Positions 16,018 through 45,113 are shown, numbered from the stretch's first letter. The stretch is DNA of 54,844 nucleotides from a virus (IMGVR_UViG_3300032293_001351:1-54844), one strand, 5' to 3'. Program-made: numbers and translations. The notes: generated from the sequence alone by a model not told the origin.

Positions 16018-16457
16018 TATATTTGTCCTTGTTCTTTAAGTTTTGCCATAAGACCTGTGAAGTCAGGGACTTCATTTATTTGTACAGCATCTATATTTGA
16101 ACTAGGTCTAGCAGTTCCTAACATGCCTTCTACACTACCTACTTTAACTTCCTTAGGTTGGAAGGCTAAACCAGGATGTACATTATCTGAAGTCATATTA
16201 AAGTCTTCATTTAACATACTTTGAGCGGTATCATTTAAAAACGCTGCCATTGGATTATTTCCTGTAAATTTAACAGGTCTAGTAGTCTGTGTGTTTAAAG
16301 TACCAGGTATTTTTGATTTTACCTGCTCCTGTAAGCTCTTTTTAGGATCTGCCAATGGAGTTTTTTTAACCTCACTTAAAAGTTTAGGAAGCTCTTCTTT
16401 AAGAACAGATCTAAGTTCTTCTCTTATTAGTTTTCTTAATTGGTCTATTTGTCCCAT
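16017..16457 (-). CDS. Baseplate-operon protein with N-terminal coiled coil (146 aa)
   Basis: The first ~35 residues are a charged heptad helix (IDQLRKLIREELRSVLKEE). The rest is a low-complexity, Pro-containing linker and a short C-terminal helix (FTGLMAKLKEQGQI). No family recognised. An own ATATTTAT motif lies 5 bases before the ATG, and the stop overlaps the gp25 start, so it leads the gp25-gp6 transcript. It may be a wedge or hub adaptor. Confidence 0.72.
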   Translation of the reverse strand: MGQIDQLRKLIREELRSVLKEELPKLLSEVKKTPLADPKKSLQEQVKSKIPGTLNTQTTRPVKFTGNNPMAAFLNDTAQSMLNEDFNMTSDNVHPGLAFQPKEVKVGSVEGMLGTARPSSNIDAVQINEVPDFTGLMAKLKEQGQI

Positions 16458-24425: not shown

Positions 24426-25211
24426 ATGATCAAGCTACTAGATTTATTATTAGAAGTAAAAGATGGCAAAAAAGCTATTATAATGGCAGGCGGAGCTGGT
24501 GCCGGCAAATCCACTTTTGTTAAACAGATTAGACCTGACTTAAAAAAAGAAGACTGGATTGAATTGAATGCAGATAAGTATGTAGAAGACAAAGATAGTC
24601 CTATGTACAATAATTTAGCAGGAGCGTCTGTTCAGATTGATAAAAAAGATCTTCCTGAAACAATTCAATCTGGTAAAAATTTTTTATATGATACAACCGG
24701 TACTAATGTAGATAGGGTATCTAATATTAAAGATTCTGGATATAATATTATGATGGTGATGGTATATACTAATCCCATAGTTAGTTTCCTTCGTAACTTT
24801 TCTAGAGAAAGAAAGGTTCCTACTGTTGGAGTATTATCTAGTTGGAATAACGTATATAAGAATATCGATACATATAAAAAAATGTTTGGCGATAATTTTT
24901 ATTTAGTAGAAACAGGAGTATCTGATGAGGAAAAGAAAATGGTAGATGAATTTGAAAAAGCATACAAATCTAATAAACTAAAAGAGTTTTTTGAGCAACT
25001 TTTATCTTCTGGTCAATTTAAGTCTACATTTAAAAAAGATCCTACTAAACAAAAATCTCCTGAAGAAATAGCAAAATCGAAAGCACTTGTTGACAAACAG
25101 ATAGATATATTATCAAATCAGTTTGATACTATAGAAAAACAAGTAACAGAATTAAAAACTCAAGATATGTCAAGTGTTGTGTCTAAAGCAAAATCATTTA
25201 TTAAGTCATGA
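24426..25211 (+). CDS. P-loop kinase with capsid-targeting-like leader (261 aa)
   Basis: Residues 1-10 (MIKLLDLLLE) match the leader of the 29966, 31770 and 32084 products and end in L-x-E. A Walker A follows, GGAGAGKST at 22-30. LNADKY at about 49-54 and FLYDTTGT at 88-95 then match the layout of zeta-toxin/AAA_33 or polynucleotide-kinase-type small kinases. The C-terminal 70 residues are a Lys/Glu-rich coiled coil. Possible substrates are nucleic-acid ends, nucleotide sugars or small metabolites. Its stop overlaps the nucleotidyltransferase start by 4 bases. The combination of a leader peptide and an enzyme suggests delivery inside the virion. Confidence 0.85.
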   Translation: MIKLLDLLLEVKDGKKAIIMAGGAGAGKSTFVKQIRPDLKKEDWIELNADKYVEDKDSPMYNNLAGASVQIDKKDLPETIQSGKNFLYDTTGTNVDRVSNIKDSGYNIMMVMVYTNPIVSFLRNFSRERKVPTVGVLSSWNNVYKNIDTYKKMFGDNFYLVETGVSDEEKKMVDEFEKAYKSNKLKEFFEQLLSSGQFKSTFKKDPTKQKSPEEIAKSKALVDKQIDILSNQFDTIEKQVTELKTQDMSSVVSKAKSFIKS

Positions 25212-25798
25212 TTAACTTCGAACAACTAGGAAGACAGATAGTAGAGGATATTTTAAAAGAAGCATCTCCAGATGTAGGACCTTGTTTTTACCCTGGTAAA
25301 TTTAAACCTCCTCATAAAGGACATTTTGAAGCTGCAAAGTATTTAGCATCTCAAAATTATATTAATAAGGTATATGTTGTTATATCTAATGTTACTAAAT
25401 ACGGTATAACTCCACAAGACTCTCTTTATATTTGGCAAGAGTATCTTAAAGCAGAACCTAATCCTAAAATAGAGGTTTATATATCTAAAGAGTCTACACC
25501 TATAAAAGACATCTTTTCTTTTATGGCAGAGAATCCAGATATTGATCCAGTATACGTTGCATCAGGTGAAAAAGAACAAACAGAATTAGGATATTTTGAT
25601 TCTATACAAAAAAGATTTCCTAATAAAATAAGACCTGAAATTATACCGGCACAATTTGGTAGAATATCTGCAACTCAAATGAGAGCTACAATTAAAGATG
25701 GTAACTTTGAAGAGTTTGTTAAGTTTATTCCAGACTCAGCGTATAATAAAGGAGTTGCAAAAGATGTGTTTGGAAGATTATTGAAAATAATGAAATGA
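25208..25798 (+). CDS. HIGH-type nucleotidyltransferase (196 aa)
   Basis: YPGKFKPPHKGHFEAAKYL carries the H-x-G-H motif (36-39) of the cytidylyltransferase / NMN-adenylyltransferase superfamily, and ISATQMR (153-159) is the matching ISSTxxR motif. These enzymes join a nucleoside monophosphate to a phosphorylated small molecule. The first 19 residues (MINFEQLGRQIVEDILKEA) are an extra amphipathic helix ending near L-K-E, like the other leaders in this cluster. It is translationally coupled to the kinase before it and the fusion protein after it. The pathway could be NAD or nucleotide-sugar chemistry; not decidable here. Confidence 0.88.
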   Translation: MINFEQLGRQIVEDILKEASPDVGPCFYPGKFKPPHKGHFEAAKYLASQNYINKVYVVISNVTKYGITPQDSLYIWQEYLKAEPNPKIEVYISKESTPIKDIFSFMAENPDIDPVYVASGEKEQTELGYFDSIQKRFPNKIRPEIIPAQFGRISATQMRATIKDGNFEEFVKFIPDSAYNKGVAKDVFGRLLKIMK

Positions 25799-27042
25799 TA
25801 CCAGAACAAAGACAAGAGATAATAGAGGATTTTATACAGTTTGTAAAAAACAAACTTGATATAAGTAAACTTCCTACAATCAGGTTTTTAAATGACCGTG
25901 AATGGGCTACTGAAAAAAGAAGTTTTGGACAATATGATCCTAATCAAAGGCACTTAGATGTTTACATAGGCAATAGAAATCTAGCAGATATACTTAGAAC
26001 TTTATGCCATGAATTAGTTCATCATAGACAAAATGAGCTTGGTAAATTATATAATAATGCTGGAGAAACTGGTTCTAATATAGAGAATCAAGCTAATGCT
26101 TTAGCTGGTATAATGATGAGAGATTATGGTAAGACTAATGATCTTATTTATGAATCCCTTCTTCCTAGTCTTAAACAAATCTACGAAGTAGAACAAAAAG
26201 GCGGTATTCAAATCTATTGTGATATGGATGGAGTGTTATGTGATTTTGATGAAAGGTTTGAACATTTTTATGGAATTCCACCTAGAGAATATTATACCAC
26301 AAAAGGTTCTAAAGCATTTGAAGAGGCTGTAAATAAAGCTGGTGTTGACTTTTGGGCTAAGATGAATTGGATGCCTGGAGGCCAAGAATTATGGTCTATT
26401 ATAGGTAAATATAATCCTTACATTCTAACTAGTCCAAGCAAATTTGAGTTTGCTAAAGAAGGAAAAAAGATATGGATAGAAAATAATTTAAATCCTCAAC
26501 CTAGTAAAATATTATTTGCACAGACAGGAAATAAACATTCAGAAATGAAGACAGATCCTAAAAGATCCATCTTAATAGATGACTATTGGCCAAATTTAGC
26601 TCCATGGAAAGCAGAAGGTGGTATTGCAATAATGCACAAAGATATTAATAAAACAAAAGATATATTAAGTAAATTTAGAATAAATGAGGTTAGTTATTCT
26701 AAACCTAATTTTAATGTAGAATGGGAAGAAGCAATTCGATATCCAGAACTTAAAAAAATAGGTAAAGATAATTGGGAGAAGATATCTAAAAAAGGATACA
26801 TAACAAAATATTCTAAAATAAAAGATGCGCTTGGAAATGTAGACTTAAATTTTAATAGTCTAGAAAAAGAAAAAAAACAAAGATTCCAATCCGCCTTTAA
26901 AAAAGGAAAAATAGAAATGCCAATAGCAGTGAAATTTTCTGATTCTGATTATGATCTGTTAGCTGGTAATACAAGACTTTCTGGATTAGTTAATAATGGA
27001 GAAGATCCTAATATTTGGATTGTAGACATTTCTAACTTATAA
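25795..27042 (+). CDS. Three-domain fusion: metallopeptidase-like, HAD phosphatase, ParB-like (415 aa)
   Basis: Domain 1 (about 1-120) has CHELVHHRQNELG, the HExxH zinc site at 72-76. Domain 2 (about 135-300) is HAD-type: YCDMDGVLCDFD with nucleophile Asp143 and Asp145, then LTSPS near 211 and LIDDYWPN near 260-267, as in 5'-nucleotidase-like HAD enzymes. Domain 3 (about 305-415) ends with MPIAVKF...LLAGNTRLSGLVNNG, a ParB/sulfiredoxin-type nucleotide-binding motif. Between domains lie IYE (118-120, 129-131) and INE (296-298) sites that fit the prohead-protease rule. Starts with a helical segment (MIPEQRQEIIEDFIQFV). Third gene of the coupled enzyme trio. I know no characterised protein with this order. 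Confidence 0.85.
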   Translation: MIPEQRQEIIEDFIQFVKNKLDISKLPTIRFLNDREWATEKRSFGQYDPNQRHLDVYIGNRNLADILRTLCHELVHHRQNELGKLYNNAGETGSNIENQANALAGIMMRDYGKTNDLIYESLLPSLKQIYEVEQKGGIQIYCDMDGVLCDFDERFEHFYGIPPREYYTTKGSKAFEEAVNKAGVDFWAKMNWMPGGQELWSIIGKYNPYILTSPSKFEFAKEGKKIWIENNLNPQPSKILFAQTGNKHSEMKTDPKRSILIDDYWPNLAPWKAEGGIAIMHKDINKTKDILSKFRINEVSYSKPNFNVEWEEAIRYPELKKIGKDNWEKISKKGYITKYSKIKDALGNVDLNFNSLEKEKKQRFQSAFKKGKIEMPIAVKFSDSDYDLLAGNTRLSGLVNNGEDPNIWIVDISNL

Positions 27043-27057
27043 AATAAAAATACTGTT

Positions 27058-27636
27058 ATGTTACCAAAAGATTCTACTCTAAAGAAAGAGTTTAAAAAAA
27101 GCGACGTTCAAAGAATGAGAAATATTATCACTGGTAAAACTGGTGATAGAACACAAATTCTTGGAGGTTGGGAAAATAAAATAGAAGAACATAAAGAAGG
27201 TGATATTTGGGAAGAGGATGGAAAGAAGTGGACTATTAAAAATGGCATCAAACAATCTATTACCAAGCTAGATAAGTTTAAGCATCTTATATCTTTACCT
27301 CTTACTTGTCCTAGTTGTAAGAAGCCCATGAAAGCTGATGAACTAAATAAGAAGATGTACTCGCTACATAAAGTTTGTTTGAATTGTGTTGTTGATATGG
27401 AAGCTAAACTCAAAATAGAAGGTAAGTACGAGCAATATGAGAAGAATATTCTTAATATGAATAAAAATGCTAGCCTTGAAGAGTTTGAACAGGCTTTGGA
27501 TTCATGGCTTGAGGAAAAAGATACATTTGTAACTGAACAAGGGGATATTGAAAGTTGGCAAGGTGGAGACAAAAACAAGATATACAAGGAGCTAAAGGAA
27601 AAGATACAGGAGTTTAGGAAAACAGATATTTATTAG
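27058..27636 (+). CDS. Zinc-ribbon protein of unknown function (192 aa)
   Basis: Residues 1-75 contain GKTGDRTQILGGWENK and EGDIWEEDGKKWTIKNGIKQ, a small conserved beta domain found in distant T4-like phages. CPSC at about 94-97 and CLNC at about 117-120 form a four-Cys zinc ribbon, and the C-terminal 60 residues are helical. No catalytic residues. A nucleic-acid-binding or assembly role is possible. It closes the 24411 late transcript; a new late-type motif overlaps its end. Confidence 0.75.
   Translation: MLPKDSTLKKEFKKSDVQRMRNIITGKTGDRTQILGGWENKIEEHKEGDIWEEDGKKWTIKNGIKQSITKLDKFKHLISLPLTCPSCKKPMKADELNKKMYSLHKVCLNCVVDMEAKLKIEGKYEQYEKNILNMNKNASLEEFEQALDSWLEEKDTFVTEQGDIESWQGGDKNKIYKELKEKIQEFRKTDIY
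27626..27633 (+). promoter_or_regulatory. ATATTTAT late-type motif before the 27651 gene
   Basis: Reads cagATATTTATTAGtaaatc, inside the last codons of the zinc-ribbon gene and 17 bases before the next ATG. Confidence 0.5.
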
Positions 27637-27650
27637 TAAATCTATATAGT

Positions 27651-29129
27651 ATGCCATCAGCATCTAAACAACAACAGAAATTAATGGGTATAGTTCATGC
27701 CCTTCAAAAAGGAGATATGAAACCTTCACAAGCATCAGGAAAAGCAAAAGAAATGGCTAAATCAATGAAAAAAGGCGATGTAAAAGACTTCGCTGCAACT
27801 AAACATAAGGGCCTTCCTAAAAAGGTTAAGAAAGAAAATATGGGCGTTGCTTCTATGTATGTAGTACGTAAGCCTAATTCTGAAATGAATGAAGCTGATT
27901 TAGTATTAGAGTTTAATCCACTTGAAGGAATTCAGTCTTTAAATATAAACATGAATGATGTGCATTCTGTATATGCTAGTGCTGAAGATGCTCAAGAAAT
28001 TGCTGCAGAAGTATATAAAAAATGTATGGATGAAGCTTTTCAACTTGAAGAAAAGAAAGGTAAAGTTGGAGACAAGTTGAAAAAAACTATTGACCATCTT
28101 GAAAAGAAGCGTAAAGAACATGTTGATATGGCTAAAGAAGATCCTAAGAATGCTTCTAAGCATAAAGAACATATTGCTAAGATTGCTACACAAATTGATG
28201 ATCTTATGAGTAAGATGGAAAAGATTGAAAAGAGCAAAAAGAATGTTGAGAAAAAAGAAGATAAAGAAAATATTAAAGAAAATAAAAAAAGCACTTATAC
28301 TATAGGAGATAAAACTACTCCAAACGGTAAAGTTTATTTTATATATAATAACGATACTGGCACTCAATCTGGAAGTTACAAAACTAAAGAAGATGCACAA
28401 AAAGTATTAGATAAAAAGAAAAATAGTTTAGAAGAAAGTGTATTAGGCACTATAGCATTAGGAGCAACTCTAGGTATGGGAGTAAATTGGTTAAAGAATA
28501 AGAAAAAGCAAATAGCGGCTGCTGATCAAAGAGATCAGGAAGAAAAAGAGCAAGCTAAAAAAGATCAAGAAAGATTAAAAAAAGTAGAAGATGCAAAAGC
28601 TGTTTTAGAAGATCCCAATAATAAACAAGAGTTGCTTAAAATAAAAAATGATAACGAGATTAAAACTTGGATAAAGACCATAGATACAGAATACAATAAT
28701 TTATATAATAAGTGGGTAGACAGGGGAGGATATAGTACTCTTAATGATGAACCACCTCCTGTATGGGGAGACGGTTCTGATAATTTAATAAAAAATATAG
28801 AGAACAAAATAGTGTCACTTGTTGGAGCAGAAAAAGCTACAGAGTTACTAGGAGCTTTAAAAACATCAGGTAAAGGTTTAGATGCGGGACTAAAAAATGA
28901 AAAAAAACTAAAAGAATCTAGCTTAAATATAGGTGATAATTTAAAAGTTGGAGATAAATTTGTAAAAAAAGATAATCAAGTATTAACAATTAAAAAAATA
29001 GTAGGTGATCAGATTTACTTAGAATCTAATAAATTTGAAGGAAAATTATGGCAATGGCCTAAAGAAATATTTGATGCAGATGTTAAATCTGGTGAGCTTA
29101 GATGGCAACCTAAACAAAAACAAGACTAA
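27651..29129 (+). CDS. Multi-module virion-type protein with N-terminal DUF3008 (492 aa)
   Basis: Residues 1-58 (PSASKQQQKLMGIVHALQKG ... DFAATKHKGLPKKV) match the DUF3008 domain of phage and bacterial small proteins. A helical Lys/Glu-rich coiled coil follows at about 125-205, then a small beta module (STYTIGDKTTPNGKVYF), a short hydrophobic segment near 265-280 (SVLGTIALGATLGMGVNWL) and another coiled coil. The end is a beta module (LKVGDKFVKKDNQVLTIKK). Modules are separated by L-x-E[S/A] strings (LEESV, LKESS). This looks like several small domains strung together and possibly cut apart by the prohead protease. Stop and next start overlap as TAATG. Confidence 0.8.
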   Translation: MPSASKQQQKLMGIVHALQKGDMKPSQASGKAKEMAKSMKKGDVKDFAATKHKGLPKKVKKENMGVASMYVVRKPNSEMNEADLVLEFNPLEGIQSLNINMNDVHSVYASAEDAQEIAAEVYKKCMDEAFQLEEKKGKVGDKLKKTIDHLEKKRKEHVDMAKEDPKNASKHKEHIAKIATQIDDLMSKMEKIEKSKKNVEKKEDKENIKENKKSTYTIGDKTTPNGKVYFIYNNDTGTQSGSYKTKEDAQKVLDKKKNSLEESVLGTIALGATLGMGVNWLKNKKKQIAAADQRDQEEKEQAKKDQERLKKVEDAKAVLEDPNNKQELLKIKNDNEIKTWIKTIDTEYNNLYNKWVDRGGYSTLNDEPPPVWGDGSDNLIKNIENKIVSLVGAEKATELLGALKTSGKGLDAGLKNEKKLKESSLNIGDNLKVGDKFVKKDNQVLTIKKIVGDQIYLESNKFEGKLWQWPKEIFDADVKSGELRWQPKQKQD

Positions 29130-29500
29130 TGGAAGCCTTAGGTTTATTTCTTGGAACATTAATGCAGTCTAGAAATCAGGCTCATATATATCATTTACAA
29201 GTACAAGGTCCTGGATCTTTTGCAGCTCATAAAGCTTTGCAAGAATACTATGAGGATATAATACCTTTAATAGATGGGATTGCAGAAGGTATACAGGGTC
29301 GCTATGGTATTATAACAGGATATAAAATGCCTGAAGCTATTCGTGAAGATAATAGTCCTAAAATGTATTTTGAAGGACTTTCTAAGTTTGTAGAAATGAT
29401 CAGACAGGATATTCCTCAAGACTCTTATATTCAAAATGAAGTTGACACTGTTGTTGATCTTATAGAATCTACTAAGTATAAACTCAAATTCTTACAGTAA
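29129..29500 (+). CDS. Dps/ferritin-like protein, DUF5856-type (123 aa)
   Basis: Four-helix pattern with H22, H34, D49 and E53. The spacing H-x11-H-x14-D-x3-E equals that of the Dps ferroxidase centre (E. coli H51, H63, D78, E82, from memory). The local text HLQVQGPGSFAAHKAL and LIDGIAEGIQG also reads like Dps. The third Dps carboxylate (D67) is Gln here. Length 123 is shorter than Dps (about 165), lacking N-terminal DNA-binding and C-terminal parts. It may bind iron or only keep the fold. Coupled by TAATG overlaps to both neighbours, within the putative cargo cluster. Confidence 0.7.
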   Translation: MEALGLFLGTLMQSRNQAHIYHLQVQGPGSFAAHKALQEYYEDIIPLIDGIAEGIQGRYGIITGYKMPEAIREDNSPKMYFEGLSKFVEMIRQDIPQDSYIQNEVDTVVDLIESTKYKLKFLQ

Positions 29501-29964
29501 TGGATAAAGCTTTATTATCTCAAATAAAGAAAGGCATAGAAGTTGAGATGGAGCATACTGATGATCCTAAAATAGCTTTAAAAATAGCTTTAGATCATAT
29601 TAAAGAAGATCCTAAATACTACGATAAACTAATTAAAGCAGGGCTTGAAGAATTAAATGAGGGAGAATTTTGTCCTCAATGTTTAGCTCAATATATAAAA
29701 GATCATGCTAACTCTTTACAAGAAGCAGAGTACAAAGGTAGAAAAGTACAACTAGGAAAACCAATGGCCGGCGATGTTAAAAAGTTTAAGGTGTATGTTA
29801 AGAACGCTAAAGGAAATGTTGTTAAAGTAAATTTTGGCCAGAAAGGAGTAAAAATAAAAAAGGGTAATCCTAAAAGAAGAAAGAGTTTTAGAGCAAGACA
29901 TCACTGTGATACTAATCCAGGACCAAGATGGAAAGCTAGATACTGGTCATGTAGAAAGTGGTAA
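29500..29964 (+). CDS. DUF5661-like plus basic Cys domain, probable head cargo (154 aa)
   Basis: Residues 5-45 (IKKGIEVEMEHTDDPKIALK, then HIKEDPKYYDKL) match DUF5661. A middle linker has FCPQC and SLQEAEY (L-Q-E site). Residues 80-154 form a second conserved domain: GKPMAGDVKKFKVYVKNAKG, then KRRKSFRARHHCDTNPGP and a Cys-Trp end. It is very basic (many Lys/Arg), so it probably binds DNA. Modular build and neighbours suggest a packaged protein; no enzymatic motif seen. Confidence 0.8.
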   Translation: MDKALLSQIKKGIEVEMEHTDDPKIALKIALDHIKEDPKYYDKLIKAGLEELNEGEFCPQCLAQYIKDHANSLQEAEYKGRKVQLGKPMAGDVKKFKVYVKNAKGNVVKVNFGQKGVKIKKGNPKRRKSFRARHHCDTNPGPRWKARYWSCRKW

Positions 29965-29965
29965 T

Positions 29966-30469
29966 ATGATTAAACTATTAGATATATTATTAGAAATGTA
30001 TCCGCCATATAGATCTGATATGGTTAAAAAAGTAAGATACAAAGCTTCTGATACGTGGACCAATAACCCAGACTTAATAGAATTAGATCCCAAAAAAGGT
30101 ACTGGTAAAAAACCTAAAGGATCAGACCGCAGATTATATACAGATGAGAACCCTAAAGATACTGTTAGTGTAAAATTTAAAACAGTTCAAGATATAAAAG
30201 ACACGCTATCTAAGAGTGAGTTCAAATCTAAACCACATGCTAGACAGTCACAAATTATTAATCTAATACATCAGAGAGTTAGAGCAGCTTATAGTAAAGC
30301 TAAAGATCCTGAAGTAAAAGCTAGACTAAAACGTGGATTAGATTATATCGAATCTCGTAAAGAAGCATCAAAAGAAAAAACTAAACGTTTAAATAAAGTA
30401 AAAGAAACAGCAGATCCACAATCAGGAAAAGCAGCACCATATGGTTCTGGTTATGGAGAAGTAAAATAA
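29966..30469 (+). CDS. Basic protein with capsid-targeting-like leader (167 aa)
   Basis: The start is chosen at the ATG of MIKLLDILLEMYPPYRSD. An upstream in-frame start at 29906 would read through the previous gene's coding end and lose the leader. Residues 1-10 end in L-L-E and nearly repeat the kinase leader. The remainder is Lys-rich, with helices at about 85-140 (HARQSQIINLIHQRVRAAYS, ARLKRGLDYIESRKEA) and a Gly-rich tail. Likely DNA-binding cargo; family not recognised. Confidence 0.75.
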   Translation: MIKLLDILLEMYPPYRSDMVKKVRYKASDTWTNNPDLIELDPKKGTGKKPKGSDRRLYTDENPKDTVSVKFKTVQDIKDTLSKSEFKSKPHARQSQIINLIHQRVRAAYSKAKDPEVKARLKRGLDYIESRKEASKEKTKRLNKVKETADPQSGKAAPYGSGYGEVK

Positions 30470-30486
30470 AAATTTAAATAAGTTTC

Positions 30487-31188
30487 ATGTCATTTTTAAA
30501 TACTGCAATACCTGTTACAGAAGCATTTATTAGAGGAAATTTTTTAAGAAATCAAGAAGATTCATTTGATAAAAAGTTTCCATGTTATATTTTTGGAATG
30601 GCTTCAATTCCTTCTCAAGCTCCATTATTTCACTTTATTATGGAAGATGGAGGTTTATGGTGGAGAATGCCAATTCATGCATTTTGTTGGAAAGAAGATG
30701 CTATACAACAAGAATTAGATGAATTAGTTTTATGGGATTCTTTTACATATCATGTATCAGTAACATCTTTTCCTTTACTCAAAAACAAAACTTGCAAATT
30801 TATTTCGAGAAGAAGAATAAAGTATTCAGGAAGATATCTCTTTACTTTAGATTGGTCTAGTTCTGATGATATGAGTGATACAGATTTTGGATTGAGTGAA
30901 TTTCCATCTCAACATAAGTGTGGACATTTTATAGCCATGGATAATGGAAATTTTGCAATACAACCTAATAATCGATTAACAATTCATGATCCGTCTTTTA
31001 CAGTAAAAGAAGATGTTGTTATTAATAGAAAGTATAATACTACTTTATGGACTGCTGAAAGAAATTCAAGATGGGTAACCCCAGATACAGATATTATGAA
31101 TTATGATCATACTAATTTAGAGTCCGGGGAATCTAACTATGAAAGATCTAAAATGTATAATCAATTAGATAATGAAACTGATATTTGA
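30487..31188 (+). CDS. Protein of unknown function, aromatic-rich (233 aa)
   Basis: Trp/Phe/His-rich globular sequence (LFHFIMEDGGLWWRMPIHAF, LVLWDSFTYHVSVTSF, FTLDWSSSDD). It lacks the leader peptide and Lys-rich character of its neighbours. The C-terminal part has Asn/Asp-rich strands (RWVTPDTDIMNYDHTN). I have the impression it belongs to a family seen in other T4-like marine phages, but no function is known. Overlaps the following gene by 17 bases. Confidence 0.75.
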   Translation: MSFLNTAIPVTEAFIRGNFLRNQEDSFDKKFPCYIFGMASIPSQAPLFHFIMEDGGLWWRMPIHAFCWKEDAIQQELDELVLWDSFTYHVSVTSFPLLKNKTCKFISRRRIKYSGRYLFTLDWSSSDDMSDTDFGLSEFPSQHKCGHFIAMDNGNFAIQPNNRLTIHDPSFTVKEDVVINRKYNTTLWTAERNSRWVTPDTDIMNYDHTNLESGESNYERSKMYNQLDNETDI

Positions 31189-31708
31189 TCATTCTTCAAG
31201 TGTTTACAATGGTCAAAATCCCCTAATCTATTTAGAAGCTAAAAGAGATAGCGAATCAGCTAAATACATGTTTGAAAATGGATGGGTTGTTTATTATAAA
31301 GACAATCAGGAATACTGGTATCAAACTCAATCTTCAAGATTAAAGATACAAGAAATTTCTAGCAAAAGAAAAAACCAACTATCCAAAATAAAAATCTCTT
31401 CACATACAGAAAACAAACAAATAGAAACCCCATCAGATCTACAACTTTATAATCAAGGAAAATTTGAAGACTTTTTTTTTGATGATCTTTTTTGGGGTAG
31501 GATAATCTATGTAGAAGATCAAGTATTGTTCTCTGTCATGAATGAAATAAAAAGTAAAAAGTCATATGGAACTCTTTCATTTTACTACTTACTAAAAAAA
31601 CTTATAAATGACTATGAGTATTTGTATTTAGCTGATTATTTTGATATTTTCAATTATAAAAATAAGTTACAGGGTTTTGAATATTGGGATGGAAATACCT
31701 GGAAATAG
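31172..31708 (+). CDS. Protein of unknown function (178 aa)
   Basis: Starts MKLIFDHSSSVYNGQNP inside the end of the previous gene in another frame. Basic in the middle (SSKRKNQLSKIKIS), Tyr/Phe-rich at the end (YLYLADYFDIFNYKNKL, FEYWDGNTW). The 'YLY-x-ADYFDIFNYK' end faintly recalls acyltransferase (GNAT-like) folds, not enough to assign. Together with the 30487 gene it forms a pair unlike the surrounding cargo-type genes. Confidence 0.7.
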   Translation: MKLIFDHSSSVYNGQNPLIYLEAKRDSESAKYMFENGWVVYYKDNQEYWYQTQSSRLKIQEISSKRKNQLSKIKISSHTENKQIETPSDLQLYNQGKFEDFFFDDLFWGRIIYVEDQVLFSVMNEIKSKKSYGTLSFYYLLKKLINDYEYLYLADYFDIFNYKNKLQGFEYWDGNTWK

Positions 31709-31755
31709 TATAAATATGATAAGTGTAGTAAACTCCAACTTTAATTAATAGCCAG

Positions 31756-31763
31756 ATATTTAT
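31756..31763 (+). promoter_or_regulatory. ATATTTAT late-type motif before the 31770 gene
   Basis: Reads cagATATTTATATTcat then ATG, 6 bases on. It starts a run of five coupled cargo-type genes. Confidence 0.5.
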
Positions 31764-31769
31764 ATTCAT

Positions 31770-32087
31770 ATGACAAAGCTTCTAGACATTTTAAAGGAAA
31801 TTAAAGAGTCTTTCATAGATTTTGCAGAAACCAGAATGAAGGGTGCAGAGAAGATTGCAAATAATGCAAAAGAAAAAGGTGGACTTTCTATGCTTACTTA
31901 CAGCCACTTTATAGTAAAGCTTCCATATTATAAGAAAGCTAAACAAGGTGAGTTTAATATAGAAGAAGCTAAAAAAGAATATGATAAAACATATAAAAGT
32001 ATATCTTTGAATATGACTCAAACAGAGTTTCAAAGAGAGGTTGGTAGACTAGAAGTATTAGGTGAACTAATAATTAGAAATAAATGA
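31770..32087 (+). CDS. Small protein with capsid-targeting-like leader (105 aa)
   Basis: Leader MTKLLDILKEIKES ends in L-K-E at residue 10. The body is helical and basic (FAETRMKGAEKIANNAKEKG, EEAKKEYDKTYKSI) with a central LTYSHFIVKLPYYKKAK. No catalytic motif. Stop overlaps the next start by 4 bases (ATGA). Confidence 0.72.
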   Translation: MTKLLDILKEIKESFIDFAETRMKGAEKIANNAKEKGGLSMLTYSHFIVKLPYYKKAKQGEFNIEEAKKEYDKTYKSISLNMTQTEFQREVGRLEVLGELIIRNK

Positions 32088-32614
32088 TCAAGCTTAAAGA
32101 CATATTAAATGAAGTTATCTCAGAAATGGGAGTAATGACAATACAACCCATTCTAGATTTGTATGATCAAAATCCTGAATTAGTATCTAAAGTAGTATTC
32201 CCTTATCATAAACTAAGATCTAAAGAAGATGTACAAGAGGAACTTTTAGGGATGGAATATGAAGAGTTTGATTCAATAAGAAGAGAATTAGATTTAAATC
32301 CTTTAGAAGAAGCTTGTTGGAAAGGATATAGACAAAAAGGATTAAAAAAGAAAGGGAATAGAATGGTTCCTAATTGTGTTAGAATAAGTGAAACAAAAAA
32401 GAAAAATAAAGTTAATCCTGCATATCTTACTAAAGATGCAGCGGCAATGAAAAAAGAGATTGATAGAGTAAAGAAGTTAAAGTCTGATGATCCTTCAGCA
32501 TATGGTAAATGGGATGCTGATTATTCAGATAAGGCTAAAACTAAGAAGTATAAGACTAAGAAAAGTGCGGCAACTTCTGCTTACGAAAAAAGGTTTGGTA
32601 AAAAAGAAAAATAA
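32084..32614 (+). CDS. Modular basic protein with capsid-targeting-like leader (176 aa)
   Basis: Leader MIKLKDILNEVISE ends in L-N-E. A helical module follows (PILDLYDQNPELVSKVVFPY). Then comes L-E-E-A and a short Cys module (CWKGYRQKGLKKKGNRMVPN, then Cys), which I recall as a recurring element in environmental T4-like phages. I-S-E follows, and a Lys/Asp/Ala-rich end (YKTKKSAATSAYEKRFGKK). Three small modules are thus separated by L/I-x-E strings. Likely DNA-associated cargo. Confidence 0.75.
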   Translation: MIKLKDILNEVISEMGVMTIQPILDLYDQNPELVSKVVFPYHKLRSKEDVQEELLGMEYEEFDSIRRELDLNPLEEACWKGYRQKGLKKKGNRMVPNCVRISETKKKNKVNPAYLTKDAAAMKKEIDRVKKLKSDDPSAYGKWDADYSDKAKTKKYKTKKSAATSAYEKRFGKKEK

Positions 32615-32889
32615 TGAAACTAAAAGAACTATTACAACAGTTAGTTGAAGAAAAATTAAAGTTTCAGCATTCTAATGCACCAGATGCAAAAGGTAGATTT
32701 AAAGAGTTGCCAGCAGAAAAATTAGCTAATTGGTTGATTAAAACAAGAAAAAGTAATATGAGTAAGATAACAGGCTCATTAAACCAACAAGCTAATTTTA
32801 ATCGTAAAGATGATCCTGCTTATGCAAGGAAGATGGATAGAACTAGAGAGATAGTTAAAAAGAAACTAGATAAAAAGAAAAAGAAATGA
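32614..32889 (+). CDS. Small basic protein with leader-like N-terminus (91 aa)
   Basis: MKLKELLQQLVEEKLKF is a leader-like helix. The conserved core is LPAEKLANWLIKTRKSNMSK followed by TGSLNQQANFNRKDDPAY, a helix pair with an Asn/Gln-rich loop. The C-terminus is almost pure Lys/Arg. Probably binds DNA. Overlaps neighbours by 1 and 4 bases. Confidence 0.72.
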   Translation: MKLKELLQQLVEEKLKFQHSNAPDAKGRFKELPAEKLANWLIKTRKSNMSKITGSLNQQANFNRKDDPAYARKMDRTREIVKKKLDKKKKK

Positions 32890-33173
32890 TAAATAAATTA
32901 GATATATTAAAACAATTACTCATTCTTGAGTATGATGCTGAAGTAGAAAAAGCATTAGCAAATAAAGCTAAGGCTACTAAAATATCTAAATCGATACTCA
33001 AAAGTGTTTATGCCAAAGGTGTGGCAGCTTGGAAAACAGGACATCGTCCTGGAGTTGGTCAACATCAATGGGCAATGGGTAGGGTAAATTCATTTGTAAC
33101 AGGTAAAGGTGGAGCAAGAAAAGCAGATAAAAGTTTATGGAAAAAAGCAAGTAAATCTAAAAAGAAAAAATAA
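32886..33173 (+). CDS. DUF5824-like small protein with leader-like N-terminus (95 aa)
   Basis: Leader MINKLDILKQLLILE ends in I-L-E. Residues 34-75 (SILKSVYAKGVAAWKTGHRP, then QHQWAMGRVNSF) match DUF5824, a small domain found across several unrelated phage groups, function unknown. Lys-rich tail. The domain is widely shared, but the leader is specific to this cluster, as if the module had been recruited. Confidence 0.78.
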   Translation: MINKLDILKQLLILEYDAEVEKALANKAKATKISKSILKSVYAKGVAAWKTGHRPGVGQHQWAMGRVNSFVTGKGGARKADKSLWKKASKSKKKK

Positions 33174-33174
33174 A

Positions 33175-33858
33175 ATGACTAATATTTCATTCTTTAAGGC
33201 TCTTTTAATGAAAGAGTTGAACGAAAAAGATCTTCCTGGAAATCAAGAAAAGATAGCACAAGCAGCTGAACCTAAAGATAAAATTACTGGTGCAGACTTT
33301 GCTGCACTTCGTGCAAAAAAAGATGTAAAAAAAGAAGGTGAAGACCATGAAGTATCAATGGCTCAAAATAGCCTTAAATCAATTATAAGTTCAGCAAGTC
33401 AATTAATGAATATGTTAGGTCAAGATGAGAAAGATATCCCAGCTTGGATCCAAGATCATATTACTAATGCAGAGAACTTTATTAATCAAGCTTCTAAAAA
33501 TTATCACGAATATAACGAAGGTAATACTGGTGAGTATGATATGGATGAACTTCCAGATGGGACAGTTGAAAAGTCAGCAGGTGATGCAGAAGATTTAGAT
33601 ATGAAACTTCAATCTATGATGGAAGCCAAGTTTATTAGTTTTAAAGATTTTTCTAAAAATTTAGAATTGTATAAAAAAGAAAATATCACTAAATCTCAAC
33701 TTATTACTTCTTATAATAAGTTAAATGCAAAAGATCAAGATAAAGCTAAGGAACTTGCTAAAGGTTTAGATGTGTTACCTAGTCCAAAAAAGATTAACGA
33801 AACTTCTCTTAAATCTATGATGGAAAGTGTTGTAAAGCGTAAAAAAGCAAATAAATAA
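33175..33858 (+). CDS. Helical cargo-type protein (227 aa)
   Basis: The start is at the ATG two bases after the previous stop (MTNISFFKALLMKELNE, ending L-N-E). An earlier in-frame start would lie within the previous gene. Residues 60-115 (MAQNSLKSIISSASQLMNML, then IPAWIQDHITNAENFINQAS) form a helical module that recurs in T4-like marine phages. SMMEAKFIS and SLKSMMESVV near the end repeat a leader-like pattern. No enzyme motif. Confidence 0.75.
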   Translation: MTNISFFKALLMKELNEKDLPGNQEKIAQAAEPKDKITGADFAALRAKKDVKKEGEDHEVSMAQNSLKSIISSASQLMNMLGQDEKDIPAWIQDHITNAENFINQASKNYHEYNEGNTGEYDMDELPDGTVEKSAGDAEDLDMKLQSMMEAKFISFKDFSKNLELYKKENITKSQLITSYNKLNAKDQDKAKELAKGLDVLPSPKKINETSLKSMMESVVKRKKANK

Positions 33859-35750
33859 TGCCAGTGAGTAACCAAGACATATTAAAAACAATACTCTTAC
33901 AAGAGTTAGATAGGATGGAACCTGAACAATCAACGTTTGAGGATGATCCTATGCAGTTTATATTAAAAAAGTATGTAGGACTTAAGAATACTCTTGAGTA
34001 TCTTATGACTCCTTCATTTGAAGAATATATCACTGGTATATATGTAGTTGCTCCTAAGCCAACAACATTTAAAATTGTTTTACATAATGGACAATTCTTT
34101 TTCTTGCAGTTCATGGGTAAAGCTTATGAAGCAACTGTAGAAGGAAAGAAATACTATTTAATGTCTATTGGTGAAAAAGAAAGATGTATGGTTGCAATAT
34201 CAAGGCTTCTTAGGTTTGGCAATCCTTTAAAGACCAAGGGACCAGATGGTGCAGAGCAAGGTACTAGAGATTCAGAAGGACCTGCAGAAGAAGCAGGACC
34301 AACACCACCAGCAGAAACTAGTGCAGAAGAAGGCGGAGGAGAAGAGTTAACGGAGTCTAGGATATTAGAGGGCATTTTAAAAAAAAACCTAACCACCGAA
34401 TTAACTATAAGCCCTGATTATAAAACAAAATCAGGTTTTAATCCTTACTATACATTAAAGGATGATGTAAAAAATGATATTGCAAAAGCAGCTAAAGTAG
34501 ATCCTAGTAAAATAATTTTTAAAAGTACTAATGATCCTAAAGGCAAACCTGCTTTAAATAGAAAAGGAAACTATTCTTTTCAAGTCAGTATAGATCAAGA
34601 TGGAAATATAAAAGATACAAATTTTTATGTTAAAGCATCTAAATCTGAAGTTACTGGTCACTATGGAACAGAAAAAAGGAAAGACTCTACTGCATCTTCT
34701 GATGTTAATGAATTTTTAACCGTTTATTTTTTGATAAATAATTTTAAAGGTACACCTGAAGAATTTATAAAATTTGTTAAAGGTAAAAAAGGATCTACTG
34801 GAGTTAAAACTGGAGATGGTGAAGATGTGATGTATGATAGATTATACAAAATGTTGGAAAAAGATCAGAGTCCTGAAAGAGATATTGCAATAGGAATCAA
34901 TAATGCTAAAGCAGTTAAATCTGATATAGGAGGAAATACTAAGTCTATTTCTCAAGTTTATTGGACTCCTAGAACAAAACCTGAAGGAGTTGCAAGCAAA
35001 AATCCTTCAGATGTGTTAATTAAATTTAAAGATGGGAGCTTTCTAGGATACTCTAATAAAATAACTGGTAAAGGTCCTGATGTAACTCCTAAATTTAATA
35101 CAAGCCTATCTGCATTTTCTAGTAAAATTGGAGATAGTCAACAGGATCAAAATATAAAAGATATAGTTGACAATTCTTGGAAACAAGCTGCAAAAAAAGT
35201 AAAAGGACCTAATGCATCTAAAGCTATTAAGTCTTTTGACATTTCTAAAGAGAAACATTCTGAAACTACTAGTAGGGGCGCTTTTGCAAATCTTGCTAGA
35301 GAGTTTGATAAAGACGGATTAGACTTTTATACAGACGGTTTTTATTACCCTTTTAGAAATCAACTTATACAAAATTTAGGAGAATACTGGTCAGATCCTG
35401 TAAATTTAGCGTATTTATTAAAGACAATAGGATTTTATACTTATGGAGAAGTTGATCCTAATATAACAGATGCGCCTTATAAATTATTAATAGGCACTGT
35501 GGATGGATCTACAATAAAAGATATTACTTCTGATGAAGAATCAAAAATATTATTAACAAAGTCTACTCCTAAAAATATAAAAAATATAGAGTTTGTATAC
35601 CCTGGAAATGGTCAATCGTTCGCTATTAAATTTTATAGTTCTTTAATTAAATCAAATGTAAACATACCTTTGACTGTAAGAACTAGAGCCTCTGGTGGCT
35701 GGGCGGGAAAATCACTTTATATTAATACTCCAGGTTTAAAAATAGGATAA
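33858..35750 (+). CDS. Two-part virion-type protein with internal leader-like peptide (630 aa)
   Basis: Leader-like start MPVSNQDILKTILLQELDR. Domain 1 (about 20-125) is a compact alpha/beta unit (SFEEYITGIYVVAPKPTTFK). Residues 126-163 are an acidic Glu/Gly/Pro/Ala linker. Then LTESRILEGILKKNL (164-178) repeats the leader pattern inside the chain, with L-T-E and I-L-E sites. Domain 2 (about 182-630) is unrecognised; DVLIKFKDGSFLGYSNK (385-401) weakly resembles a PD-(D/E)XK strand pair, but an acidic residue is missing. The protein may be a fusion of two cargo proteins, cut at the linker during head maturation. Confidence 0.75.
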   Translation: MPVSNQDILKTILLQELDRMEPEQSTFEDDPMQFILKKYVGLKNTLEYLMTPSFEEYITGIYVVAPKPTTFKIVLHNGQFFFLQFMGKAYEATVEGKKYYLMSIGEKERCMVAISRLLRFGNPLKTKGPDGAEQGTRDSEGPAEEAGPTPPAETSAEEGGGEELTESRILEGILKKNLTTELTISPDYKTKSGFNPYYTLKDDVKNDIAKAAKVDPSKIIFKSTNDPKGKPALNRKGNYSFQVSIDQDGNIKDTNFYVKASKSEVTGHYGTEKRKDSTASSDVNEFLTVYFLINNFKGTPEEFIKFVKGKKGSTGVKTGDGEDVMYDRLYKMLEKDQSPERDIAIGINNAKAVKSDIGGNTKSISQVYWTPRTKPEGVASKNPSDVLIKFKDGSFLGYSNKITGKGPDVTPKFNTSLSAFSSKIGDSQQDQNIKDIVDNSWKQAAKKVKGPNASKAIKSFDISKEKHSETTSRGAFANLAREFDKDGLDFYTDGFYYPFRNQLIQNLGEYWSDPVNLAYLLKTIGFYTYGEVDPNITDAPYKLLIGTVDGSTIKDITSDEESKILLTKSTPKNIKNIEFVYPGNGQSFAIKFYSSLIKSNVNIPLTVRTRASGGWAGKSLYINTPGLKIG

Positions 35751-35765
35751 AAATAAATTTTTTTA

Positions 35766-35789
35766 TTTCAATTATTTGTTGTATATTAG
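35766..35789 (+). promoter_or_regulatory. Middle-type promoter element before the 35805 gene
   Basis: Contains ATTTGTTGTATATTAG preceded by TTTCAATT, matching 23 of 24 bases of the element at 22607-22630 on the other strand. It ends 15 bases before the ATG. It gives one small gene its own non-late promoter inside a late region. Confidence 0.7.
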
Positions 35790-35804
35790 CCATAAATTAA
35801 TCAC

Positions 35805-36050
35805 ATGGCAAAGAAAGATACAATCTATAGAACAATAAAGACTATAGAAGGAACAACAATCCACATTTACGAAGACGAAAAAGGTGCTACAAAACCCCAT
35901 TGCGCCACTGGCCCTGCTATTCTTTACTCTAAAGGACAGAATAAACAAGATGAATACTATTTGTTTGGAGTTAAATACGATTATGATAAATGGCTAGAAT
36001 TATCTAGACCTTTAAGGAAAGCCGCTACTAAAGAAGATTTTGTTGATTGA
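35805..36050 (+). CDS. Small protein of unknown function with middle-type promoter (81 aa)
   Basis: MAKKDTIYRTIKTIEGTTIH, then HCATGPAILYSKGQNKQDEY and LFGVKYDYDKWLELSRPL. The 'GPAxxY...G...yyLFGxxxdydkW' arrangement occurs in small phage proteins with MORN-like turns. No enzymatic motif. Its separate promoter class, lack of leader peptide and position between two late transcripts suggest a regulatory or takeover role expressed before the structural genes. Confidence 0.75.
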   Translation: MAKKDTIYRTIKTIEGTTIHIYEDEKGATKPHCATGPAILYSKGQNKQDEYYLFGVKYDYDKWLELSRPLRKAATKEDFVD

Positions 36051-36053
36051 TAA

Positions 36054-36061
36054 ATATTTAT
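36054..36061 (+). promoter_or_regulatory. ATATTTAT late-type motif before the 36078 gene
   Basis: Reads gataaATATTTATAAGtaaatg, 16 bases before the ATG. Late transcription toward terminase, portal and head genes probably starts or restarts here. Confidence 0.5.
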
Positions 36062-36077
36062 AAGTAAATGTACGACC

Positions 36078-36428
36078 ATGTCATTTAACTTAGAAAAGTA
36101 TTTAGTTGAAAACAATCTTACCATAATCTCTAGAATTAGAGAAGAGGAAGATATGGAGGTAGAACCTTCAAAAGATGATCTTAAACAATCTGAAAAAGAC
36201 TTTAGATCTATAGATAAAAAGAAGAAAGAGCTTGCAAATCTTCAACAACAAGTAAAAACAATCCTTGCTAAATATACAGAAAGAGGACCCGATGGTAATC
36301 TTAAACTTAAAGATGTAGCTGGATATAAGAACGCTGTTGGAAATATTCCTGATAGAATTAAGCTTCTCAAAGCCCAGATAGACAAAGTAGAAAATCCTAA
36401 ATTAGATTCAGATGAAGAAGACAATTAG
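36078..36428 (+). CDS. Coiled-coil protein with packaged-protein-like N-terminus (116 aa)
   Basis: MSFNLEKYLVENNLTIISRI resembles the start of the 376-aa product at 1529. The rest is a Lys/Glu coiled coil (FRSIDKKKKELANLQQQVKT) with a short Gly/Pro break and an acidic tail. The stop lies 14 bases inside the next gene. Perhaps a core or cargo protein. Confidence 0.72.
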   Translation: MSFNLEKYLVENNLTIISRIREEEDMEVEPSKDDLKQSEKDFRSIDKKKKELANLQQQVKTILAKYTERGPDGNLKLKDVAGYKNAVGNIPDRIKLLKAQIDKVENPKLDSDEEDN

Positions 36429-42509: not shown

Positions 42510-44009
42510 ATGAGAACAATTGAATTATATCGTAAGCATAAAGCCGGTGAAGTAAGTCGTGAGAAGTTTCTTTACGAAGTACGCCGTGATAAAAATCTTC
42601 CTTGGGTAACCAATGTTACTTCTTTTGATGATGCTGTAAGAATCCTTAAAAATAAGGGCGTAATTAGTGAAGCTGAGATCAGTGAAAATTATGAAGTACA
42701 TTATTCAGATGGAGTTAGGCAATCTAAAAAGTTTAAAGATATAAATCAAGCTATGTCTTTTGCTAAGTCGTTGGTAAGTACTAATGACAAATTACAACAC
42801 GTAGATATATTTAAAGCAGGACCTAATTTTAATTCAACAGCAGATACTGATGCAGTAGTTGCTTGGTGGGGAGACGGTTCTTTTATGGATAATAAGTCAA
42901 AAAATGATCCAAAATTAGCTGCTAAAAAAATGTCTTTAAGCGAAGAAACTGATCAAGAAAGAGATACACGCCGCAAAGAGGGTGATAAAGAGATGGATCA
43001 AACTTTGTTGACTTTTTTAAAGAATTTAAACGATAAATCTCCTACAGACCATATCGCTCAAAAGATTAAAGATCAAGAAGCAGAGATGATTAAAAAATAT
43101 GGTTCTTTAAATGAGGTTGATAATAATATTCCTACAGATCCTGCAGTCGATAGAGTAAATCCGTACTTCTTGAAAAGAGGAGTGCAGATGTTATTAGCTA
43201 AAGAAAAAGAACTTACTAATGATTCATATATTAAAGCTCTAAATAAAGCTGCATCAATGCTTGAAAAGAATCCTCATGCATTTGATGAAGAGATGTTTGC
43301 TAATGCAAAAGATGTAGAAAAGGCAGATGCTAAGCTTGAAACTGAAGAAGTTAAAAAAGCTAATCATAAGAATAAGGCTAACGAAATGAAGAAAGTAAAG
43401 GTTAAATCCTTAAAAGAGTCTGCTATCGAAGACCTTACTACGCATCTTAAAAAAAAAGATTTAGTTAACGAAGATAGCCACTGGAAACATCATGTGGGTT
43501 CAGAAGTGCATACTCCTGATGGTCAAGGTAAAGTAATTGAAATAGTTGGTGGTACATTTACTGTTGAAATGAAAGATGGTACCCAAAAAGATTATCAGAT
43601 TAATACTGTAGATCATTTTACTCAAAAGTCACAAGAACAAGAGCCTACTCAAGGAGCGCAATCAGAACCAACTGTAAAAGATATGTGGGCAAACTGGGAT
43701 AAGAATCAAGCAAAACCTTTTGGTGGCATGGTAGGAGATCCTGAACAATTTAAAAAGCCTTTAGATTTATCTAAAATCAAACAATACATGGAAATGTATA
43801 AGGATGATAAAAAGAAAATGAAAAAACTTAAAGAGGTTTTAAAAAAATTGAAAGAAGCTTATGTTATAAAAACAGTTGGATCAAATACTGTTGTCGGAGC
43901 TGGAAAAAATGATAGTATGGGTAAAAACCAAGCTAAAGGAATAGAACAAAATACTGGAGAGCCATTAAAAATTGTAAATTTAAAAACAGGCCAAGAACAA
44001 AATGTCTAA
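42510..44009 (+). CDS. Prohead core-type protein with several protease-like sites (499 aa)
   Basis: N-terminal domain MRTIELYRKHKAGEVSREKF ... LPWVTNVTSFDDAVRILKNK is a conserved phage module. It is followed by ISEAE, LSEET, LNEVD, LKESA and LKEAY, all L/I-x-E strings at module boundaries. Middle parts are helical; residues about 330-370 form a small SH3-like beta module (GSEVHTPDGQGKVIEIVGG). Gene order before gp21 fits gp67/gp68/IP-type core proteins. Overlaps the protease start by 8 bases. Confidence 0.78.
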   Translation: MRTIELYRKHKAGEVSREKFLYEVRRDKNLPWVTNVTSFDDAVRILKNKGVISEAEISENYEVHYSDGVRQSKKFKDINQAMSFAKSLVSTNDKLQHVDIFKAGPNFNSTADTDAVVAWWGDGSFMDNKSKNDPKLAAKKMSLSEETDQERDTRRKEGDKEMDQTLLTFLKNLNDKSPTDHIAQKIKDQEAEMIKKYGSLNEVDNNIPTDPAVDRVNPYFLKRGVQMLLAKEKELTNDSYIKALNKAASMLEKNPHAFDEEMFANAKDVEKADAKLETEEVKKANHKNKANEMKKVKVKSLKESAIEDLTTHLKKKDLVNEDSHWKHHVGSEVHTPDGQGKVIEIVGGTFTVEMKDGTQKDYQINTVDHFTQKSQEQEPTQGAQSEPTVKDMWANWDKNQAKPFGGMVGDPEQFKKPLDLSKIKQYMEMYKDDKKKMKKLKEVLKKLKEAYVIKTVGSNTVVGAGKNDSMGKNQAKGIEQNTGEPLKIVNLKTGQEQNV

Positions 44010-44631
44010 ACAACTCTTAATAGAATACAACGCTTTCCAACCACTTCCTCAATCATTGACTGAAGGTCGTCGTTTAGCTAATGGTAATATGGTAGTATCC
44101 GGACTTGTTCAGGCTACTGATAAACCTAACGCAAATAGAAGAATATATCCTTATCAAACTTTATTTGAGCAAGTACAAAAATATATTGCTGGACCAATTG
44201 CAGAGAATAGAGCTTTAGGAGAACTAGATCATCCAGAGTCTTCTATTATTAACCTTAAAAATGTTAGTCATAATATAATAAGACTTTTCTGGGAAGGTAA
44301 AGATTTATATGGAGATGTTGAAATTCTTCCTACACCTTCTGGAAATATATTAAAAGAATTGTTTAAGAATAATATTACTGTTGGTATTTCATCTAGGGCT
44401 ATGGGTTCTGTTACTCCAATTGGTGAAGGTCTTGTTCAAGTTGAAGATGATCTAGATCTTATTTGTTGGGACTTTGTATCTACACCATCAACTTATGGTG
44501 CATACATGAAACCTGTAGCAGGATTAAGAGAATCAGTAGATCATACAATAATTCAACGTAAAGAAAGTAAAGTGCATCAATTAATATCAGATATTATCTG
44601 CTCCCAATCAGGTATTTGCTGTATTAAATAA
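44002..44631 (+). CDS. gp21: Prohead core protease, T4 gp21-like (209 aa)
   Basis: Herpesvirus/phage prohead serine protease (S78-like) layout: GELDHPES with His77, GISSRAMGS with Ser130/Ser131, and an acidic DDLDLICWDFV strand. gp21 digests the scaffold after L/I-x-E and also cuts itself and gp23. The protein itself has LTE before GRRLANG (cut would follow Glu21) and LRE before SVDH near the C-terminus, matching self-processing. Located between core and scaffold genes as in T4. Confidence 0.94.
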   Translation: MSKQLLIEYNAFQPLPQSLTEGRRLANGNMVVSGLVQATDKPNANRRIYPYQTLFEQVQKYIAGPIAENRALGELDHPESSIINLKNVSHNIIRLFWEGKDLYGDVEILPTPSGNILKELFKNNITVGISSRAMGSVTPIGEGLVQVEDDLDLICWDFVSTPSTYGAYMKPVAGLRESVDHTIIQRKESKVHQLISDIICSQSGICCIK

Positions 44632-45113
44632 TGGATAACTCACTAGAAATATTAAGGTTAAAGAAGTTAGCAGGACTTTTATCAGAAAGTGAAGTACATG
44701 AATTAGGTTTAAAAGACCTTGGTATTGGTGCTGCAATGGCAGCTAGTTCTATATTTGGTAGTCCACAACAAACTAAAGCTCAAGAACCTCAACAAATAGT
44801 GCAACAAGCTAGTGATGATATTGATATTACAAGTTCTAAAGCTGCAAAACAAATTGAAAAACAAGGTTATAAACCTGCAGCTGGTGGATTGCCTATTGAT
44901 ATATCTATAGAAAGACTGCAAGATATAATAGGTAAAGGAATGAAAATAGTACAAGGTAAAGGTGTAGGAACTACTCAATCAGCAGCACAAATGGCTGCAA
45001 CTCAAAAAGCAAAATCAAAAGCATCAGGCCAAATAACACAGACTAATATAACTTTCTATAAAACTCTAGATAACGGAAATATTGAAGTTATAGTATTTTT
45101 AGGTAGTAAATAA
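44631..45113 (+). CDS. Small head-region protein with leader-like N-terminus (160 aa)
   Basis: MDNSLEILRLKKLAGLLSES ends in L-S-E at residue 19. The 'LKKLAGL' piece also closes the scaffold protein (QKLAGIK). An Ala/Gln-rich middle follows (AAMAASSIFGSPQQTKAQEP), then Ala/Lys/Ser-rich sequence and a C-terminal strand pair (ITFYKTLDNGNIEVIVFLG). No known family. Overlaps the protease stop by one base and ends before a hairpin. Confidence 0.72.
   Translation: MDNSLEILRLKKLAGLLSESEVHELGLKDLGIGAAMAASSIFGSPQQTKAQEPQQIVQQASDDIDITSSKAAKQIEKQGYKPAAGGLPIDISIERLQDIIGKGMKIVQGKGVGTTQSAAQMAATQKAKSKASGQITQTNITFYKTLDNGNIEVIVFLGSK

Follow-up and report, generated by a model that had tools for sequence, protein, structure and literature searches.

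We analysed a viral DNA record of 54,844 nt (IMGVR_UViG_3300032293_001351, a whole IMG/VR virus record and a linear fragment; hereafter the window) and found, at the start of at least nine genes between positions 24,426 and 36,428, a short amphipathic leader whose last residues are [L/I]-x-E. The bodies behind these leaders are unrelated and include a P-loop kinase, an NMNAT-like nucleotidyltransferase, a DUF5824 protein and several unknowns. The leaders match the residues defined by mutagenesis in T4, genes for an S77 protease and a Gp23-type capsid protein lie nearby, Glu10 is invariant, and tagged enzymes occur in cyanophage virions; together, these data support the reading, which we hold to be highly probable, that the leaders serve as capsid-targeting propeptides like those of the T4 internal proteins. 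The leaders likely belong to the T4-type targeting class, and the block probably encodes a set of head cargo that would be targeted and cut as in T4, in an expanded and diversified form. The presence, conservation and modularity of the leaders, their match to T4 IPIII residues and their correlation with cyanophage virion enzymes detected by mass spectrometry (MS) are directly supported. Such a head-carried set is hard to spot from annotation, and the leader offers a sequence rule for telling which phage proteins ride in the head and reach the host as infection begins.

A 10-residue N-terminal stretch is enough to package T4 IPIII; targeting depends on residues 4 and 7, processing on residues 8 and 10, and gp21 cuts after L/I-x-E (PMC9026906). 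IPIII residues -10 to -1 are annotated as the cleaved part in GenBank X04567. The commonest leader form in the window is a 10-mer with the IPIII spacing (hydrophobic residues at 4, 7 and 8, and Glu at 10), which agrees with the likeness to the T4 capsid-targeting sequence proposed in an initial annotation of this DNA. The N-termini quoted there were all found at ATG starts, mostly at stop/start overlaps with the preceding gene; our own gene calls took the first ATG acceptable as a start, and this simple rule reproduced the obvious starts. We then applied a strict rule (M..phi..phi phi.E) that had been fixed from T4 IPIII before looking at the window, and 5 of the 62 window proteins matched, where 0.11 were expected (P about 9e-8), so the claim that unrelated proteins share an N-terminal leader ending in L-x-E stands beyond chance. 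In T4 itself, the rule recovers IPII, IPIII and the protein at 107323, which we take to be gp24, and it matches Alt at the second Met. T4 gp24 is cut after residue 10. A motif-free test of ungapped similarity between residues 2-21, run all-against-all for proteins of different families, gave 26 pairs scoring at least 25 in the window, versus 5 for residues 31-50 and 4-6 in shuffles. Four pairs scored at least 35, versus none for the internal segment and 0, 0 and 1 in three shuffles, and the top-scoring pairs were leader genes.

Conservation falls on the residues that matter in T4. Across 45 unique N-termini of kinase orthologs, positions 4, 7 and 8 are fixed or nearly fixed as Leu or Ile, Glu10 is present in 45/45, and positions 5, 9 and 11-14 vary; in a 28-sequence kinase alignment reaching down to 39% identity, Glu10 is among the 36 invariant columns, together with P-loop residues (Walker-A K28). 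In nucleotidyltransferase orthologs Glu18 is invariant and residue 17 is free (K/R/N/Y), with [LI]xE present in all 25 distinct leader-bearing N-termini. Orthologs of most named leader genes keep [L/I/M]-x-E with x variable, and the looser forms that had been pointed out at 25208, 32614 and 33858 likewise keep L/I-x-E (13/14 for 32614). The capsid protein was correctly said to start alike (MANLVQSLLTE), as it reads SLL[TAN]E with Glu11 in 10 of 10 matching orthologs and T, A or N at residue 10, and the protease's own site reads SL[TNK]E in orthologs (x = T/N/K). The protease cut rule predicts just this, a free residue between a constant L/I and E. The gene at 25795, also listed at first as a looser form, was dropped because its orthologs read IIED, IIQD, IIEE, IINE and IVKD, in which the terminal Glu is not conserved.

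The leader also behaves as a module. A distant clade of the nucleotidyltransferase has no leader and starts directly at the catalytic domain (MIALYPGAFKPPHRGHF). A search of related genomes for the leader on other proteins found it in relative G014 on non-orthologous genes far from the block (MIRLTDILNE, MICLTDILFE, MIKLLNILKE and MIKLKHLLNE), whose bodies include a DHH-like protein. In AlphaFold models the leader is a low-confidence helix (pLDDT near 50, and below 50 for kinase residues 5-12) that lies outside the confident kinase and nucleotidyltransferase domains.

Tagged enzymes are found in the virions of T4-like cyanophages. MS of S-CREM2 virions identified 52 proteins, including a SAM hydrolase, an APH-like kinase, a cytidylyltransferase and a Cas9-like nuclease (PMC10665884, Table 3), so that the initial remark that no described phage was known with this range of enzymes in the head goes too far; enzymes in T4-like virions are already reported, and it is the several leader classes and the scaffold-tail repeat described below that are new here. 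Among the detected proteins, the SAM hydrolase starts MKDFDSFLEE, the APH-like kinase VKRFDAFLTE, the cytidylyltransferase MKNFSSFLTE, gp13 MKDLHSFLTE and gp136 MQTFSMFFSE, and the Cas9-like nuclease carries RFASFMAE at residue 19. Strict matches make up 5/52 of the detected and 1/167 of the undetected S-CREM2 proteins (p = 0.003), and 5/28 of the non-structural detected proteins (p = 0.0002). That 5 of the 6 strictly tagged genes were detected makes contaminating cytoplasmic enzymes a less likely source of the MS matches. The NMNAT of S-SCSM1, also MS-detected in virions, starts MKSFLQFLKE/A (a slash marks the end of a leader), and the cytidylyltransferase of S-SZBM1, the only enzyme detected in virions there, starts MRFRQFIIE/A, one residue shorter. 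The virion nucleotidyltransferases of all three cyanophages belong to phrog_395/3041, as does window gene 25208, and their leaders are T4-like (MKxFxxFLxE); these phages differ from the window phage in leader consensus and hosts, and their virion papers mention no targeting leader. Within the body of literature searched, capsid targeting in cyanophages returned a T4 review only. The leaders offer an explanation for NMNAT-like and kinase proteins in cyanophage virions, which their authors could not tell from contamination. Virion protein SSCSM1_93 of S-SCSM1 shares four PHROGs with a leaderless protein of the block (27651-29129, plus strand; DUF3008 1.2e-7), so the list of leaders is not the full list of cargo; by its family, the latter is a probable virion protein.

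Relatives use at least three clear leader classes, and the single shared leader first proposed is not borne out. On unrelated proteins of Flavobacterium phage immuto and relatives we found class B (FDLKKFLVENKLTxNS), class C (MKKSQLxxIIKEEL) and class D (RMQKLAGIITES). DNA-pattern scans of IMG/VR, in which all counts are lower bounds, placed class B in at least 117 loci and at least 60 body families, and class D in at least 80 loci and at least 52 body families. Of the class B matches listed, 114/134 lie within 5-9 residues of the first Met, and in one locus (L262) a stretch of 6.7 kb holds four of class B. Among long contigs bearing class B or D leaders, 11/12 encode both Gp23 and S77, a proportion that stands without a random-contig base rate. 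T4 shares with the window phage the 10-residue amphipathic N-terminal leader (hydrophobic 4/7/8, Glu10, L/I-x-E) and a genome that also encodes an S77 protease and a Gp23 capsid; it differs in that the window's phage group has several leader classes on many protein families per genome, with kinase, NMNAT-like and other bodies among the cargo. The T4 leader MKTYQEFIAE is unlike MIKLLDILLE, FDLKKFLVENKLT and QKLAGIITE of this group.

The class D leader RMQKLAGIITE/S repeats the C-terminal tail of the prohead scaffold (RMQKLAGIIK-stop or RWQKLAGIK-stop), with a protease site added. Among 2,337 proteins, the motif [WMFLY]x[KRE]LAG[ILV] was counted 22 times, 11 times in the first 30 residues, 11 times C-terminally and never between; the C-terminal cases are scaffolds except for one leader-bearing protein (G014 12487). 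Among loci retrieved without the use of this motif (954 proteins), it stands at 12 scaffold C-termini, in one leader and at no internal position. Class D leaders of immuto score 44 against the scaffold tail versus a shuffle maximum of 35, and the window's class D leader scores 32 versus a maximum of 34 (P 0.01). Class C has a tentative likeness to an internal stretch of immuto protein 200 (50 versus a null maximum of 40), the region being rich in K and E, and a comparison of classes A and B as copies of a head protein gave no match above shuffles. The repeat suggests that cargo may dock where the scaffold tail docks. Whether this T4-like group loads its heads by interchangeable leaders, with class D copying the group's own scaffold tail, cargo entering the prohead by scaffold mimicry and dozens of unrelated IMG/VR proteins so tagged, we judge to be an even question; if true, the mimicry would explain the binding target of one leader class.

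We propose that the leader is a short amphipathic helix added at the N-terminus of an otherwise complete protein, which it would dock, while the prohead assembles, on the core or inner shell. The S77 protease would then cut after [L/I]-x-E with loss of the tag, and the body would remain in the filled head and be ejected with the DNA; putative host-side roles include NAD metabolism and RNA or nucleotide phosphorylation. We infer docking, cutting and injection in this phage. The large injected cargo set envisaged at first is kept as a T4-type targeting propeptide on expanded cargo, given the IPIII residue match, S77, Gp23, the invariant Glu10 and the cyanophage MS data, and loses 25795 and the idea of one leader. 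Several observations weigh against it. Some genes of the block have no leader, the strict rule showed no enrichment in HTVC008M, and we found a virion proteome for neither this phage nor immuto, its closest isolate. The cyanophage authors could not exclude carry-over of enzymes; gene 30 of S-SCSM1 (MKTFKQFMSE) is not among the proteins marked as belonging to the virion; the strict-spacing test on S-SZBM1, a shallower dataset in which small tagged proteins were missed, gave 0 detected and 4 undetected matches; and S-CREM2 and S-SZBM1 pooled give p of only 0.03.

Targeting without obligatory cutting is improbable but deserves the most attention among the alternatives. The leaders might bring cargo to the head and not (always) be removed, the conserved Glu being part of a docking surface; in T4, Asp at position 10 stops processing and still allows targeting, so the functions are separable (PMC9026906), and leader removal in this phage is read from sequence. 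However, x varies freely with [LI] and E fixed, and the same pattern is seen in two proteins of this phage that homology makes expected substrates, the capsid protein and the protease. It is more doubtful still that the leaders have nothing to do with the head and act as helices for assembly or partner docking (in a replication or host-takeover complex, for example), with the kinase, nucleotidyltransferase and nucleotidase as cytoplasmic auxiliary enzymes. The nucleotidyltransferase cluster does adjoin primase/helicase genes in HTVC008M and cyanophages, but tagged nucleotidyltransferases were MS-detected in the virions of three cyanophages, the class D leader equals the scaffold tail, and the block adjoins terminase and portal.

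Finally, AT-rich start regions could favour Met-Ile-Lys-Leu-type N-termini, making the leaders a product of chance. N-termini are often helical, and the strict match of 21865, a small minus-strand protein, looks accidental and was judged probably to be so. This explanation is extremely unlikely in view of the excess of strict matches (5 against 0.11), the failure of composition-preserving shuffles to reproduce the similar pairs, the synonymous-site differences among four window leader copies, and the 0/107 matches in the AT-rich crAss-like control phi14:2, which has no S77 protease.

Head-directed cargo has parallels outside the T4 type. The N-terminal 30 residues of P1 DarB suffice to package a heterologous protein (PMC9024508), which resembles the N-terminal targeting proposed here; P1 differs in that it is thought to lack a separate scaffold and has a single large cargo in place of many proteins under related leaders. 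Polyvalent proteins (PMC5512222) and the ejection proteins of phiKZ/SPN3US are head-packaged, injected multidomain enzymes with metallopeptidase, ADP-ribosyltransferase and similar domains, and phiKZ-type phages also use Glu-directed cleavage, although the cut rule there is S/A-x-E, unlike L/I-x-E here. Polyvalent proteins are fused multidomain chains, whereas in this phage the activities mostly lie on small proteins of their own, every one under a separate leader; 25795 has a nucleotidase domain together with a weak metallopeptidase match, and the other named proteins have one domain or none.

The window genes described in this paragraph and the next are all on the plus strand. The kinase (24426-25211, leader MIKLLDLLLE/V, Pfam Zeta_toxin 6.5e-11) is zeta toxin/polynucleotide kinase-like; Foldseek gives its fold as zeta toxin and bacterial Pnkp (polynucleotide kinase), and named phages hold few homologs. 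The nucleotidyltransferase (25208-25798, leader MINFEQLGRQIVEDILKE/A) has an NadD/NMNAT fold by fold comparison. The protein at 25795-27042, with no conserved leader, combines a metallopeptidase-like part with a 5'-nucleotidase (phrog_2643 3e-26, phrog_87 0.007); immuto encodes the nucleotidase separately, under a leader of its own, MKKVMGNLADLLLE. Unknown proteins follow at 29966-30469 (leader MIKLLDILLE/M, kept in 5/6 family members) and 31770-32087 (105 aa, MTKLLDILKE/I, immuto ortholog MRLLELLREAKEAIEDFAKTR). The protein at 32084-32614 (MIKLKDILNE/V, a leader also present in relatives; phrog_9737/4359/727) has a C-terminal KGYxxxGxKKKxxxxVPNCV motif. For a small basic protein (32614-32889, leader MKLKELLQQLVE, N-terminus quoted as MKLKELLQQLVEE), ortholog N-termini keep L-[VFY]-E in 13/14 cases, one ortholog reading MRLIDILTELAEERLKF. 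The DUF5824 protein (32886-33173, leader MINKLDILKQLLILE/Y; DUF5824 1.3e-15, phrog_3041 2.3e-11) corresponds to the C-terminal part of the phrog_3041 nucleotidyltransferase polyprotein. An unknown protein (33175-33858, leader MTNISFFKALLMKELNE) has orthologs with ELNE, EIDE, ELEE, EMSE and ELDQ, and the 630-aa protein at 33858-35750 (phrog_2496 region, leader MPVSNQDILKTILLQE) has LL[QT]E kept in orthologs.

Further leaders (36078, 1529 and 44631) and the protease's own sites were overlooked in the initial annotation. The 116-aa protein at 36078-36428 has a class B leader (MSFNLEKYLVE/NNLT) kept in 41/41 family members and of the same class as FDLKKFLVENKLT of immuto. Outside the block, a 376-aa protein (1529-2659) has the class B leader MKDFNIAKYLRE/N (BLOSUM score 39 to the 36078 leader), and a 79-aa protein (2673-2912) has a leader, MAFNFKQFTANNPLLKE, that comparison places as degenerate class B. 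Between protease and scaffold, a 160-aa protein (44631-45113) has the class D leader RLKKLAGLLSE/S, with the motif common to the scaffold tail. The S77 prohead protease (44002-44631; T4 gp21 family, PF03420 6.7e-24 at 44086-44514) has its own QLLIE and SLTE sites. The prohead scaffold (45257-46288), gp22-like by its position between the protease and capsid genes, ends SRWQKLAGIK, a tail conserved in relatives, and the Gp23-type major capsid protein (46312-47955, Gp23 5.3e-77) starts MANLVQSLL[TAN]E/S. By eye, some leader-bearing bodies look ADP-ribosyltransferase-like (L304, G014 10659-11057 and MEL 60276-60926); a Pfam search of two of these gave no match.

The window also encodes a T4-type terminase and a T4 gp20-type portal (Portal_T4 1.5e-71), which the block of leader genes adjoins, and tail genes on the minus strand. 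By terminase, the closest cultured relatives are Flavobacterium phages immuto (56% identity) and then Microcystis phage Mel-JY01 (51%), and immuto has the window's gene order (primase, exonuclease, variable block, terminase, portal, protease, scaffold, capsid); these relationships make a Bacteroidota host likely. A conserved tail-cluster protein (16017-16457, minus strand) has a class C-like N-terminus, MGQIDQLRKLIREELRSVLKEELPKLL, though it lies among baseplate genes. The tail region holds a radical SAM/SPASM protein (3748-4779, minus strand, 4.7e-11) next to a glycosyltransferase-like gene (4776-5732), and the fragment closes (51927-54842) with a very long protein of GTSGSSGTSG repeats, probably a fibre.

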